Of a stretch of DNA of 55,211 bases, positions 11,535 to 52,452 are shown piece by piece. Below the pieces are notes generated by a model that worked only from the letters and a program-made list of their open reading frames with translations, searched no databases and was not told the origin of the DNA. Position 1 is the stretch's first letter, and every line of letters begins with the position of its first letter. Source of the DNA: an uncultured Erysipelotrichaceae bacterium (GTDB taxonomy: Bacteria > Bacillota_I > Bacilli_A > RFN20 > CAG-826); the NCBI GenBank assembly GCA_902785645.1, contig CACZZG010000007.1:1-55211 (forward strand), given 5' to 3'. The translations under genes were made by a program, and so were the position numbers.

Positions 11535-12431
11535 AGTCTTTTTTGCTTTTTGTTTATCTCGATTGAGTTGAGCCTTTAATTCTTCAAGGGAATCAAACTT
11601 CTTTTCATCTCTTATGAATTTTATAAATTCAACGAAAATATTTTTACCATACAAATTGCCTTCAAAATCAATTAAGTGCACTTCCACTTGAGGCTTCGCT
11701 AAAGGATTAATTGTGGGATGCAAACCAACATTGATAATGGCTTTATATTTTTGTCCGTAGACATACCCATAACCAATATAAACACCATTTTTTGGATAAA
11801 CATATTCATATTCAAGTTTAAGATTTGCGGTTGGAAATTCGATCTTCGTGCCGTTTTTAAATCCCACCATGACCGTGCCATTAATTCGATATGGTCTTCC
11901 AAGCATTTCTTCAACAGCTTCCATTTCGCCTTCTTTAATAAGTGCAATAATATTTCTAGAAGAAATCTTATTATCTTTGATATTTTCAAAGTTTGTGATC
12001 TTTACATTAAAGAAACGCTTGAGATAATTAACATCACCTTCAGCGCGGACACCAAAATGATAATCTGGACCGCAGCAGATTTGATATGGATTGATGGCGA
12101 GAAGAACTTTATTAATAAATTCATCTTTAGTGGCCGACGCAACTGTGTGATCAAAATCCATTAAGAAAAAATAATCCACTCCAATCTCTTCAAAGATATC
12201 AGCTTTATCGGAAATTGATGTGATGCAGTTATCAACAAGCTTATTTCCTAATACATATGCGGGTGATTGATTAAATGAAAGGACACCGAGTTTATAACCT
12301 TCTTTTCGCGCTTTTTTGATTAAGCTTTGATGACCTAAATGGACACCATCAAAGAACCCTAAACATAGAATTAGATTAGGGACAGGAGTTAATTTATCAC
12401 CGAAATTAAATTGAATTATTTCCATAATCAT
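11526..12431 (-). CDS. ribF: Bifunctional riboflavin kinase/FAD synthetase
   Basis: 301 residues, family-typical. The N-terminal FAD synthetase domain has LGFFDGVHLGHQSLI (residues ~24-38) and the C-terminal riboflavin kinase domain has RPYRINGTVMVGFKNG and FPTANL. It makes FMN and FAD from riboflavin. The start overlaps truB by about 26 nt. Two ATGs six nt apart share one GAGGG ribosome site, so the start may be 12431 or 12425. The position directly downstream of truB is conserved in Bacillota. Confidence 0.95.
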   Translation of the reverse strand: MIMEIIQFNFGDKLTPVPNLILCLGFFDGVHLGHQSLIKKARKEGYKLGVLSFNQSPAYVLGNKLVDNCITSISDKADIFEEIGVDYFFLMDFDHTVASATKDEFINKVLLAINPYQICCGPDYHFGVRAEGDVNYLKRFFNVKITNFENIKDNKISSRNIIALIKEGEMEAVEEMLGRPYRINGTVMVGFKNGTKIEFPTANLKLEYEYVYPKNGVYIGYGYVYGQKYKAIINVGLHPTINPLAKPQVEVHLIDFEGNLYGKNIFVEFIKFIRDEKKFDSLEELKAQLNRDKQKAKKTLQ

Positions 12432-13284
12432 TAATCCCTCTTAAGCATTTAAATTGTCCATTTTCATATTTATATATGGCGATGACCATATGATTTTTAT
12501 CAACCGCAAGTATTATATCACGAGAATCTGACATATTTGAAGGAAGGGCCACACCGTGACTGGCTTTAATCGCCCACTCATCATCCAATTCAACTTTGTC
12601 CATAAAGGATAAAGCATCGTAATTATTTATTAACTTATCTTCTGAAACTTCTAAAACGTCAATCGCATCCTCAACAGAAAAGTTTCCAACCTTTGTTCTT
12701 CTTAAAGAAGTTAAATATCCGATGTTATCTAATTTTTCTGCGATTGTTTCTCCTAAGACACGGATATATGTACCTTTAGATACATGCGTTTTGAAGGTAA
12801 TAGAGTCTTTTGTGAAATCTAATAATTTCAAAGAATGAATCACTATATCTCTTGCTGGTCTATCCACCTCAATTCCTTGAAGCGCCAAATGAAACAGTTT
12901 TTGCCCTTTATATCTCACCGCAGAAACCATTGGAGGAACTTGTTTTTGCGGGCCAATTAAACTATCAAAAACCTTCAAAATATCCTCTTTAGTGGGACTT
13001 TTAACAGGTTTTTCTTCAATTATTTCGTTGGTTTTATCTCCGGATATAGTCCTTCCGCCCAATTTCAAAGTGGCGATATATTCTTTATCTAAACCATCTA
13101 AACAAATGTTAGCTTTTGTGGCCCTACCGATTGAGACAACGAGCAAACCAGTCGCAAAAGGATCAAGCGTTCCACTATGACCGACTTTTCGCTCATGAAA
13201 AATATGAGATATCTTTGTGACGACATCTCTTGAGGTCCAATCTTCTTTTTTATCGATGAGAAAAAATCCGTTCACGCTTTTCAT
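12406..13284 (-). CDS. truB: tRNA pseudouridine-55 synthase
   Basis: 292 residues. The motif KVGHSGTLDPFATGLL (residues ~33-48) contains the catalytic Asp; the N-terminus NGFFLIDKKEDWTSRDVV is also typical. It makes the T-loop pseudouridine in tRNA. The protein ends with a short domain after the catalytic core. No clear ribosome site precedes the ATG. An AT-rich 32-bp gap separates it from the divergent ttcA-like gene and must hold both promoters. Confidence 0.95.
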   Translation of the reverse strand: MKSVNGFFLIDKKEDWTSRDVVTKISHIFHERKVGHSGTLDPFATGLLVVSIGRATKANICLDGLDKEYIATLKLGGRTISGDKTNEIIEEKPVKSPTKEDILKVFDSLIGPQKQVPPMVSAVRYKGQKLFHLALQGIEVDRPARDIVIHSLKLLDFTKDSITFKTHVSKGTYIRVLGETIAEKLDNIGYLTSLRRTKVGNFSVEDAIDVLEVSEDKLINNYDALSFMDKVELDDEWAIKASHGVALPSNMSDSRDIILAVDKNHMVIAIYKYENGQFKCLRGINDYGNNSI

Positions 13285-13298
13285 TTATCTTATTAGAT

Positions 13299-13316
13299 AA
13301 TATAATACTTTTCATA
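13299..13316 (+). promoter_or_regulatory. -10 box of the TtcA-like gene, near-leaderless
   Basis: TATAAT at 13301-13306 with TTTTCA 17 nt upstream as a weak -35 (13278-13283). The ATG starts 10 nt after the box and no Shine-Dalgarno is present, so the leader would be about 0-4 nt. Confidence 0.5.
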
Positions 13317-14513
13317 ATGAAAGCAATTCGCACATTACTAGCTTGCATCCGTAAAGCGGATCAAACTTATAATCTAATAAATCACGGTGACAAAATCATC
13401 ATCGGTCTTTCAGGCGGTAAAGATTCGCTTGCTCTTTGTTACGCATTGAATCTTTATCAAAAGTTTTCTCACACCGATTTTGTTATTCAGCCAGTCACTC
13501 TTGATTTAGGTTTCCCTGGTTTTAATAGAAAACCATTAGATGAATTTTGTGAATCAATAGGACTAAAACTCATCGTTCATGACTCTAAAGAAGTCTATGA
13601 GATTTTATCCATTCAACAAGAAAAACAAAAACTCAATCATTTGCCATGCTCAATTTGTTCCAGAATGAAAAAAGCGGCGATTAATAAAGTAGCTAATGAA
13701 TTAGGTTTTAATAAAGTGGCTTTTGCTCATCACTCTGATGATGCTATTGAAACTTTATTAATGAACGAAATATATGGTTCAAGAATTGCCACTTTTTCAC
13801 CAAAAATGCATCTTGAAAACGCCAATATTGATTTCATCAGACCCTTCTTATTAGTTAAAGAAAAAGATATCAAAAGATTTGTTAAAGAAGAGAATATCAA
13901 TGTCATGGGTTCATCTTGTCCAGCGGATAAAAAAACAACAAGAGAAGATATCAAAATATTATTAAATAATATTTATAATCAATTCCCCAAAGCAAAAGAA
14001 AGCTTTTTAACAATGCTTTCCAACTATCAACAATTTGATTTATGGGGAGAAGAAATATATTTGCAAATCAATCAAGAAGGCTTGTGCTTAAAACCGGTAA
14101 CCACTCCATTAGATGAATGGCATGTCGTGAATATTCGTCAAAAGGTTTTTGGTGATGGGCAAAATATCGCTTTTTCCGATAATGAAGTGTTTGAAGAAGA
14201 AAAAGAAAGCACCACTTATTTAATTACATTGAAGAAAGATATTATCGGAACCATCAGATATCGCTTTGTTAATGGAGAATATAAAATCGAAAGATTTGCT
14301 ATTCTTAAAGAATATCAAAACAAGGGATATGGCAAGCTCGTCTTTAATTTCCTTGTGGAATTAATAGGACGTCAATTCAATCCCTGCACTATCACATTAA
14401 ATTCTCAAGAATACATCATTGATTTTTATAAAAAATGTGGCTTTGAACCTGTTGGAGACATTTTCCAAGAAGCAGGTATAAACCACATTAAAATGATTAA
14501 GATAATTAAATAA
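13317..14513 (+). CDS. TtcA-like tRNA thiolase fused to a GNAT acetyltransferase domain
   Basis: 398 residues. Residues 1-230 match the TtcA/TilS ATP-pyrophosphatase family: PP-loop SGGKDS at 32-37, a CSIC pair at C111/C114 and a third Cys at C201, the set that holds the [4Fe-4S] cluster in TtcA. TtcA thiolates cytidine 32 of some tRNAs. From about residue 250 the protein has a GNAT fold with FAILKEYQNKGYGKL as the acetyl-CoA loop and a C-terminal FYKKCGF segment. The two domains are in one uninterrupted frame. The gene lies on the opposite strand to the translation cluster that surrounds it. The acetyl acceptor is unknown. Confidence 0.85.
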   Translation: MKAIRTLLACIRKADQTYNLINHGDKIIIGLSGGKDSLALCYALNLYQKFSHTDFVIQPVTLDLGFPGFNRKPLDEFCESIGLKLIVHDSKEVYEILSIQQEKQKLNHLPCSICSRMKKAAINKVANELGFNKVAFAHHSDDAIETLLMNEIYGSRIATFSPKMHLENANIDFIRPFLLVKEKDIKRFVKEENINVMGSSCPADKKTTREDIKILLNNIYNQFPKAKESFLTMLSNYQQFDLWGEEIYLQINQEGLCLKPVTTPLDEWHVVNIRQKVFGDGQNIAFSDNEVFEEEKESTTYLITLKKDIIGTIRYRFVNGEYKIERFAILKEYQNKGYGKLVFNFLVELIGRQFNPCTITLNSQEYIIDFYKKCGFEPVGDIFQEAGINHIKMIKIIK

Positions 14514-15077
14514 TTATTTTAAAGATAAACCGACCTTAAAGGCATCGGCGATTTCTTCACCAATCACATTATATTTGTTATTTGCTGGATCAAAAGCAAT
14601 TGGTTCGAATTTTTTCATATCAATTTTGCCATTAGTCAAAACTGATTCATCCACTGAAACGTTGACGATTTCACCGATTAAAGTTCCACCTTCACCCATA
14701 TTCCCTTCTAAAGAAATTAGTTTACATTCTAAAGCGACTGGTAATTCTTCAAATAATGGAGCGTTAACATGTTTACTTTTCACAGGATGGAGTCCAGATT
14801 TTTCGATTTTCTTTGCCTCTTTAGCTTTGCTAACTAAGCCAACATAGTCACAAGCTTTAACAGTTTTTCTAGTTCCAAAAGAAATGGTAAAAGCTTTATT
14901 CTTACGGATGTTGTCTGTGGTAACGTGTGAAGCAAGTGAAACAGTTACTTGATTATAATCGTAGATAGAACCCCATGCAGCGTTCATCGCATCTGGTTCG
15001 CCTTTTTCATCATATGTTCCAAGAATTAACACCATCATTGGAAACATCAAAGTTTTTGCACCCAAATCTTTTCTCAT
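14514..15077 (-). CDS. Flavin reductase-family protein
   Basis: 187 residues with the split-barrel flavin-binding fold: MVLILGTYDEKGEPDAMNAAW near the N-terminus and NKAFTISF in the middle. Members bind FMN and either reduce free flavin or act as small flavoproteins; the partner is unknown. A GAGGT ribosome site lies 8 nt before the ATG. It ends immediately at the stop of the convergent TtcA-like gene. Its position between rbfA and truB is not part of the usual cluster. Confidence 0.85.
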   Translation of the reverse strand: MRKDLGAKTLMFPMMVLILGTYDEKGEPDAMNAAWGSIYDYNQVTVSLASHVTTDNIRKNKAFTISFGTRKTVKACDYVGLVSKAKEAKKIEKSGLHPVKSKHVNAPLFEELPVALECKLISLEGNMGEGGTLIGEIVNVSVDESVLTNGKIDMKKFEPIAFDPANNKYNVIGEEIADAFKVGLSLK

Positions 15078-51993: not shown

Positions 51994-52452
51994 CTACTTT
52001 ATTTTTTTATAGTTTACGCACTCGTTATCTCTACTAGTTTCTATATAGCCAAGTTTTTTATAAAATGCATTAGTTCTTGTATTTGCTATTGGTGTATCTA
52101 AATAAAAACTATTAATTGTATTATCTAAAGATTCAATCGCGTTCATTATGGCGATGCCATATCCTTGATGGTGATATAAAGGATTCACAAATATTCTTCC
52201 AATATAGATACTATTATTATCTTTAAAGATAACTGCTCCACCTATAATTGTATTGTCAACTTCAAATGTATATAGGTGGCCTTCTTTTTGCATATCAAGA
52301 TGCCACTTTACATCATCATAGTCTGGTGGGCCGTCTAGTTTATCTCCTCCCACTAAATAATCAGTATGAAAAGCTGCAATTGAAATCTCGGTTAATAACT
52401 CAACTTCATTTTCATTTGCTTTTCTAAAAACATAATTGCCTTTATTCTTCAT
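51994..52452 (-). CDS. GNAT-family N-acetyltransferase
   Basis: 152 residues. GNAT motifs: EVDNTIIGGAVIF, IYIGRIFVNPLYHHQGYGIAIM (acetyl-CoA loop, residues ~83-104 in two parts: IYIGRIFVNPLYHH and QGYGIAIM) and NTRTNAFYKKLGYIE. The acceptor is unknown. TAAAAT lies 12 nt above the ATG and there is no ribosome site, so the leader is short. It stands alone, with its own terminator. Confidence 0.85.
   Translation of the reverse strand: MKNKGNYVFRKANENEVELLTEISIAAFHTDYLVGGDKLDGPPDYDDVKWHLDMQKEGHLYTFEVDNTIIGGAVIFKDNNSIYIGRIFVNPLYHHQGYGIAIMNAIESLDNTINSFYLDTPIANTRTNAFYKKLGYIETSRDNECVNYKKIK

Follow-up and report, generated by a model that had tools for sequence, protein, structure and literature searches.

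The window, by which we mean the whole 55,211-nt stretch of DNA that was analysed, comes from a genome assembly of 1.17 Mb that is 88% complete. On its forward strand, positions 13317 to 14513 hold a gene for a 398-residue protein in which a small TtcA-like tRNA thiotransferase continues into a GNAT acetyltransferase domain (a ttcA-GNAT fusion by reading frame, domain matches and conservation). The gene is a single uninterrupted frame from ATG to TAA and the Pfam matches of both halves score above their cut-offs, which bears out the in-frame fusion that a sequence-only reading of this DNA had proposed. Head-to-head with it, across a gap of 32 nt, lies truB (12406-13284, reverse strand; TIGR00431 at 200.8 bits, above cut-off). 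On the other side a flavin-reductase-like gene converges on the fusion and is outside it (14514-15077, reverse strand; PF01613). The earlier reading had placed the gene within a translation cluster on the opposite strand, and this is the usual setting for the small TtcA, which lies head-to-head with truB within 400 nt at 73 of 96 loci. Directly 5′ of the start codon there is a weak candidate promoter (TTTTCA, 17 nt, TATAAT; 13278-13306, forward strand), found in a scan whose matches in the region were no more numerous than in shuffles. The TATAAT-like box ends 10 nt 5′ of the start codon (within 13278-13316) and no ribosome-binding site of the fusion gene was clear by eye; from these two observations, the fusion mRNA may be leaderless.

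The thiotransferase core occupies residues 1 to 245 (13317-14051, forward strand, as are all features of the fusion given below). The PP-loop family (PF01171) matches residues 26 to 212 at 66.3 bits (Pfam cut-off 27). The best NCBIfam match of the core is TtcA (NF007972) at 175.5 bits, below the equivalog cut-off of 272 bits; the three ordinary TtcAs of the same order that we scanned (183.6 to 202 bits) likewise fall below it. A complete PP-loop and three cluster cysteines had been noted before and are indeed present: the PP-loop SGGKDS spans residues 32 to 37 (13410-13427), C111 and C114 form the sole CxxC of the whole fusion protein (13647-13658), and C201 (13917-13919) is the third cysteine. 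All three are predicted cluster ligands from the alignment to NcsA. Our motif table holds 72 tailed rows, 39 with an intact GNAT tail (class A; the same contig recurs in at least two of these) and 33 with a tail that lacks the CoA loop (class B); the PP-loop and the three cysteines are unchanged in 72/72, decayed tails included. NcsA and TtuA are the nearest solved structures to the core by sequence, and the model matches the structures of both. By its motifs, the core belongs to the TtcA/TtuA family. No zinc-finger family is among the Pfam matches of the fusion protein, whose PP-loop begins at residue 32, and judged by sequence the core is not of the zinc-finger TtuA/NcsA type. SufB/D-type cluster-assembly genes are present in the source genome.

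The tail (residues 251 to 398; 14067-14510) is matched by Acetyltransf_10 (PF13673) over residues 294 to 395 at 58.4 bits (Pfam cut-off 23.6), and PF13508 and PF00583 also score above cut-off. Its sequence matches the solved structures 5jph (E 4e-13) and 1q2y (E 3e-11), and Foldseek aligns its model to 5jph_A with a TM(target) of 0.88. By sequence and fold, the tail is a GNAT of the YjcF/SACOL1063 type, and its acetyl-CoA loop is intact as had been claimed: the pyrophosphate loop QNKGYG (residues 334 to 339; 14316-14333) fits the pattern R/Q-x-x-G-x-G/A. Tyr371 (14427-14429), which we take from the GNAT superfamily to be the probable general acid, is Tyr in 39/39 intact and 3/33 decayed rows. 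His390 (14484-14486) is His in 39/39 intact and 4/33 decayed rows. An identity as RimI, the S18 acetyltransferase, was rejected (TIGR01575 at 34 to 36 bits versus a cut-off of 86.4). Near the far end of the window, positions 52033 to 52296 give a weak GNAT-profile match (36 bits) in a 153-aa frame.

The two halves are joined by a linker (14022-14066) that is modelled with low confidence at residues 236 to 243 (pLDDT <50). The AlphaFold model of the full fusion has a pLDDT of 91.6 and a pTM of 0.62, with residues 236 to 243 poorly defined and the placement of the domains relative to each other uncertain.

Small and ordinary TtcA across related genomes

A search of other genomes for the domain pair, as proposed in the sequence-only reading, finds it kept: 22 of 58 kin genomes, the source genome included, carry an intact GNAT fusion, and the two-domain frame is present at 13 of 15 loci of a named genome collection (at least two of the 13 contigs are shared with the 58-genome set). 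Because the same stop-free frame recurs in relatives, the fusion is not due to chance, and an assembly or frameshift artefact is excluded. No stop or frameshift separates the domains, which is where that reading had looked for a refutation; the other homologues, with a decayed tail or none, have a different natural architecture. It had also called the fusion undescribed, and no TtcA-GNAT fusion was found in the literature searched, a search that had preprints and most subscription papers outside its scope.

A TtcA-family match was found in 53 of the 58 genomes. The small type (counted at 200 bits or more) is present in 42 and the ordinary, ~280-aa type (3 of 11 confirmed by NCBIfam) in 11; no genome has both and 5 have neither. 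This mutual exclusion is significant by Fisher's test when kinship is ignored (2e-8, 58 genomes), and both types occur within each of the families f1, f3, f4 and f5. Going by this exclusion, the small TtcA is probably an s2C32 enzyme that stands in for the ordinary TtcA; 2-thiocytidine at position 32 is the predicted product because the small enzyme seems to substitute for the ordinary one. One copy counted as small, in G051 of family f2 (L055:2102-2674), has an in-frame TAG at codon 191 and is either a decaying copy or an assembly error.

In a survey of the class (395 genomes, with up to four candidates scored per genome), at least 81 genomes have a small TtcA and one (G285) has a second match at 1e-20. 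A sample of 392 genomes across the phylum gave 85 matches at 1e-45, every one inside the class. Five genomes of family f29 (G497, G520, G529, G546 and G556) carry a small TtcA with in-frame TGA codons, which suggests that these genomes translate TGA as an amino acid. Uncultured Bacilli with small genomes seem to have a small TtcA subfamily in place of ordinary TtcA. For comparison, the only TtcA homologue mentioned in a 2014 survey of Mollicutes is that of M. penetrans, and B. subtilis is taken there to lack the enzyme (PMC4014445).

Additions, decay and loss of the tail

Small TtcAs were classed A to D, or as tail-less, by the sequence after residue ~245. Class A, to which the window protein belongs, has an intact YjcF-type GNAT (families f1 and f5), and class B has tails of 96 to 150 aa without a CoA loop (f1, f3 and f5). 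Class C consists of two f2 tails (L050 and L054) that are Pfam GNATs of unplaced type; L050 has a CoA loop and L054 appears to have none, and no close kin was recognised for either, whether among the tails (the other C tail included) or among the free GNATs of the set (best 29 bits). Class D is another GNAT by Pfam, found in genus g192 of family f25 (genomes G313 and G401, loci L085 and L086); an equally long frame occurs in G558, and G320, also of g192, has no such tail. Many small TtcAs are tail-less, and in the f1 genomes of the 58-genome set the sole tail-less one is L028:1501-2229 (G013). By class, the thiolase is head-to-head with truB at 37/39 A, 20/33 B, 2/2 C, 2/2 D and 12/20 tail-less loci. 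A free GNAT gene next to a tail-less small TtcA would have hinted at coupling of the two. In the 12 tail-less loci viewed by eye, no free GNAT gene adjoins the thiolase; at L090 a GNAT-like ORF lies ~2 kb off.

The free kin of these tails differ. Among the 77 genomes of its family, the nearest kin of the class D tail is a free GNAT (49 to 50% identity, 132 bits), and its match to the best A tail reaches only 38 bits. With L063 left out as a probable former fusion, the free YjcF-type GNATs match the profile of A with 100% (E 1.6e-40), that of D with 91% (1e-6) and that of C with 32% (5e-4). On these sequence comparisons, different lineages carry GNATs of at least two unrelated kinds (A and D), joined to the small TtcA at one and the same junction. 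The different free kin imply that the two additions were separate events, which the core tree supports without proving it (83 cores; 13 near-copies, the fragments L044 and L055 and the short matches L058, L060 and L061 were omitted). In this tree the tail-less rows other than L028 form one group with C and D (support 100/99), in which the neighbour of C is the tail-less L057 and that of D is L087. A tree constrained to unite all tailed rows, with L028 omitted, is worse by 49 log units at a p-AU of 0.064, so that a single origin is not rejected. Holding the A and B rows together gives an AU p of 0.35, and support on the GNAT tree is weak, so that the YjcF-type fusions of f1, f3 and f5 may go back to one event or to several.

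The class B tails have lost the GNAT active site. The CoA loop, scored as R/Q-x-x-x-x-G/A, is present in 39/39 A rows (with the middle Gly in 35 and H or E there in the other four) and in 0/33 B rows, and Pfam reported no GNAT family in the seven B proteins scanned. When the profile of intact tails served as the query, hhalign returned 80 to 98% for six of nine decayed groups and weak values for the other three, which comprise six rows (19.5% for f3, 9.2% for L025/L048 and 4.0% for L052); N-terminal pieces, used as controls, did not exceed 1.7%. The f3 tails are linked to GNAT only via another decayed group (92.9%). For these six rows, an origin from GNAT therefore rests on position and tree. 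On the core tree L025 is nested within the A group, and L052 lies with the A rows of f5, so that tail decay probably occurred more than once.

Decayed tails are nevertheless constrained in the closest pairs, where tail dN/dS is 0.06 to 0.17 for B (four pairs, three from one trio) and 0.08 to 0.15 for A (four pairs), with cores at 0.02 to 0.06 in the same pairs. Over wider pairs tail values reach 0.32 in A and 0.5 in B and C, and cores 0.10 to 0.21; in dN, tails outpace cores about two- to fourfold. Both halves of one B protein (L070) are modelled with confidence (pLDDT 89.3, pTM 0.87), and its tail has the strand and helix order of the window GNAT with a shorter loop at the CoA site. In a fold search with a decayed-tail relative, the N-terminal half fills the matches listed, with TilS first and TtuA and NcsA among the closest.

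Genus g33 adds the converse case. G054 has the order ribF-truB, fusion, Sel1-repeat gene. G049 has the same order, but an intact GNAT of 149 aa stands alone in the slot (L063:4031-4480) and an ordinary TtcA is encoded elsewhere; in G037 truB adjoins the Sel1-repeat gene with neither half between them, and an ordinary TtcA is again found elsewhere. The G054 tail matches the lone GNAT of G049 best (47% identity), and the two group weakly on the GNAT tree (95/58). The lone GNAT is probably a former fusion: loss of the thiolase half is the simpler reading, given how often small TtcA without a tail is found next to truB. Since relatives thus show a tail that was added, decayed or left alone, the two halves in these small-genome gut bacteria are linked but separable: the GNAT can be added, worn to an apparently dead shell or found by itself.

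Possible roles of the two halves

The reading that we favour, with somewhat better than even confidence, is that the fusion is a two-enzyme protein (an s2C32-type thiolase and a GNAT with its own substrate) whose tail fold also aids the thiolase. Each half would carry out its own reaction. Following the mechanism of the family, ATP at the PP-loop would activate a tRNA base and a [4Fe-4S] cluster on C111, C114 and C201 would deliver sulfur; both steps, activation that depends on ATP and the passage of sulfur from a cluster on three cysteines, are described in PMC10067955 and PMC5372739. The product of the N-terminal half would most likely be 2-thiocytidine at position 32. The GNAT half would have its own substrate to acetylate, which is probably not the thiolated base but a protein or a small amine. 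The tail is probably also an accessory fold for the thiolase (tRNA grip, dimerisation or stability), since at least two unrelated kinds of GNAT were appended and tails without a CoA loop were kept. In the lineage of the window, the tail would keep both the catalytic and the accessory role.

Several observations are consistent with this two-enzyme reading. Both motif sets are intact and both folds are modelled with confidence; small and ordinary TtcA exclude each other, as do fused and free GNAT, and SufB/D-type genes are at hand. The CoA loop, Tyr371 and His390 are lost together, and the closest decayed pairs are still constrained. The confident model of L070, the profile kinship of six decayed groups to intact tails, the free kin of tail D and the three g33 genomes point the same way. 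Against it stand the missed TtcA cut-off, exclusions that ignore descent, the uncertain placement of the two domains in the window model, an AU test that does not reject one tail origin, the weak GNAT match of 3 of the 9 decayed groups, the tail dN/dS near 0.5 of wider decayed pairs and the faster change of tails than of cores. The GNAT-alone state in G049 argues against a purely accessory tail and the decayed tails against a purely catalytic one; the decayed tails could also be slowly dying remnants.

One tentative alternative is that the GNAT is mainly a structural module that gives the short core tRNA binding or dimerisation, its acetyl-CoA chemistry being left over. TtuA and NcsA carry zinc fingers that the short core lacks, TilS likewise has further, C-terminal domains beyond its core, and more than one kind of GNAT sits at one junction. 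The 33 tails without a CoA loop, constrained in their closest pairs and in one case confidently modelled with the core, fit as well. However, a mere shell would have no need of the CoA loop, Tyr and His that occur together in 39/39 intact rows, the GNAT survives alone in G049, and many small TtcAs, L028 within f1 among them, do without a tail.

We give a similarly limited weight to an accidental fusion in a shrinking genome, in which the halves, though driven by one promoter and made as one chain, would be functionally unrelated enzymes and the decayed tails would be outgoing remnants. The halves do occur apart (G049, L028), and in G037 the slot is without the whole gene. A YjcF-type GNAT is fused (class A, 22/58) or free (9/58, at 90 bits or more) and never both in the 58 genomes (Fisher 0.01, kinship ignored), and wider decayed pairs reach a tail dN/dS near 0.5. 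The attachment of different GNATs to the same small thiolase and the constraint on the closest decayed-tail pairs speak against an accident.

A bolder proposal, which we hold to be possible rather than probable, is that GNAT folds have repeatedly been recruited as a working part of the thiolase, first as live partners that bind acetyl-CoA and later as catalytically dead pseudo-acetyltransferases by which the tRNA is held or presented; where the tail is live, as in the window protein, acetyl-CoA occupancy could gate thiolation. It is improbable that the thiolase is acetyl-CoA-responsive, with a GNAT that acetylates it, or senses acetyl-CoA, and tunes thiolation to carbon supply. Acetylation control of the thiolase had been raised in the sequence-only reading too; an intact CoA loop on the thiolase chain would link the halves in this way, and nothing speaks against it directly, but members with a decayed tail or none would lack such control, and G049 keeps the GNAT without the small thiolase. 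Finally, the doubly modified nucleoside raised in the sequence-only reading, a base thiolated and then acetylated, now seems very unlikely although both activities are plausible on one chain and Elp3, an Fe-S tRNA enzyme with a GNAT-type domain, is a precedent for such a pairing, because either half persists without the activity of the other (33 tails have lost the GNAT site beside an unchanged thiolase centre, other members are tail-less, and G049 has a lone GNAT and no small thiolase) and the GNATs nearest in fold, SACOL1063 and YjcF, consist of a single domain.

The live, decayed, detached and missing GNAT halves form a natural series in which the role of a fused GNAT in tRNA thiolation can be tested directly, and they offer an example of an enzyme decaying into a pseudoenzyme within a protein that modifies tRNA.

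Comparison with known systems

Among the closest known enzymes is TtcA, the tRNA 2-thiocytidine(32) synthetase of E. coli and Salmonella, which has the PP-loop SGGKDS, a CxxC and a third Cys in common with the small core. The core differs in being shorter (about 245 aa), in its place beside truB and in the attached GNAT tail, and it alternates with ordinary TtcA genome by genome. TtcA has a second CxxC (two CxxC motifs are described for TtcA in PMC5372739); in its place the small core has the third Cys in SSCPADKKTTRE. TtuA and NcsA (Ctu1), among the closest solved structures of the core, have zinc fingers at both termini, whereas the core has neither; N- and C-terminal zinc fingers are given as features of TtuA and Ncs6/NcsA/Ctu1 in PMC10067955. 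Another added domain occurs in the same order, where G055 encodes an ordinary TtcA in one 519-aa frame with a TcdA/ThiF-like E1 domain (L058:3527-5086); there the extra domain is E1/TcdA-like rather than a GNAT, and the case is limited to one genome. Elp3 and TmcA are tRNA modification enzymes with a GNAT-type domain, but its partner in them is a radical SAM or a helicase domain, with a chemistry different from that of the fusion described here. For the tail itself, YjcF of B. subtilis (1q2y) and SACOL1063 of S. aureus (5jph) are the closest systems (TM(target) 0.86 to 0.88, rmsd 2.0 Å, 26 to 30% identity) and ElaA (5z6n) is a more distant GNAT relative; the YjcF and SACOL1063 chains are single GNAT domains, whereas here the GNAT is fused to a tRNA thiolase.
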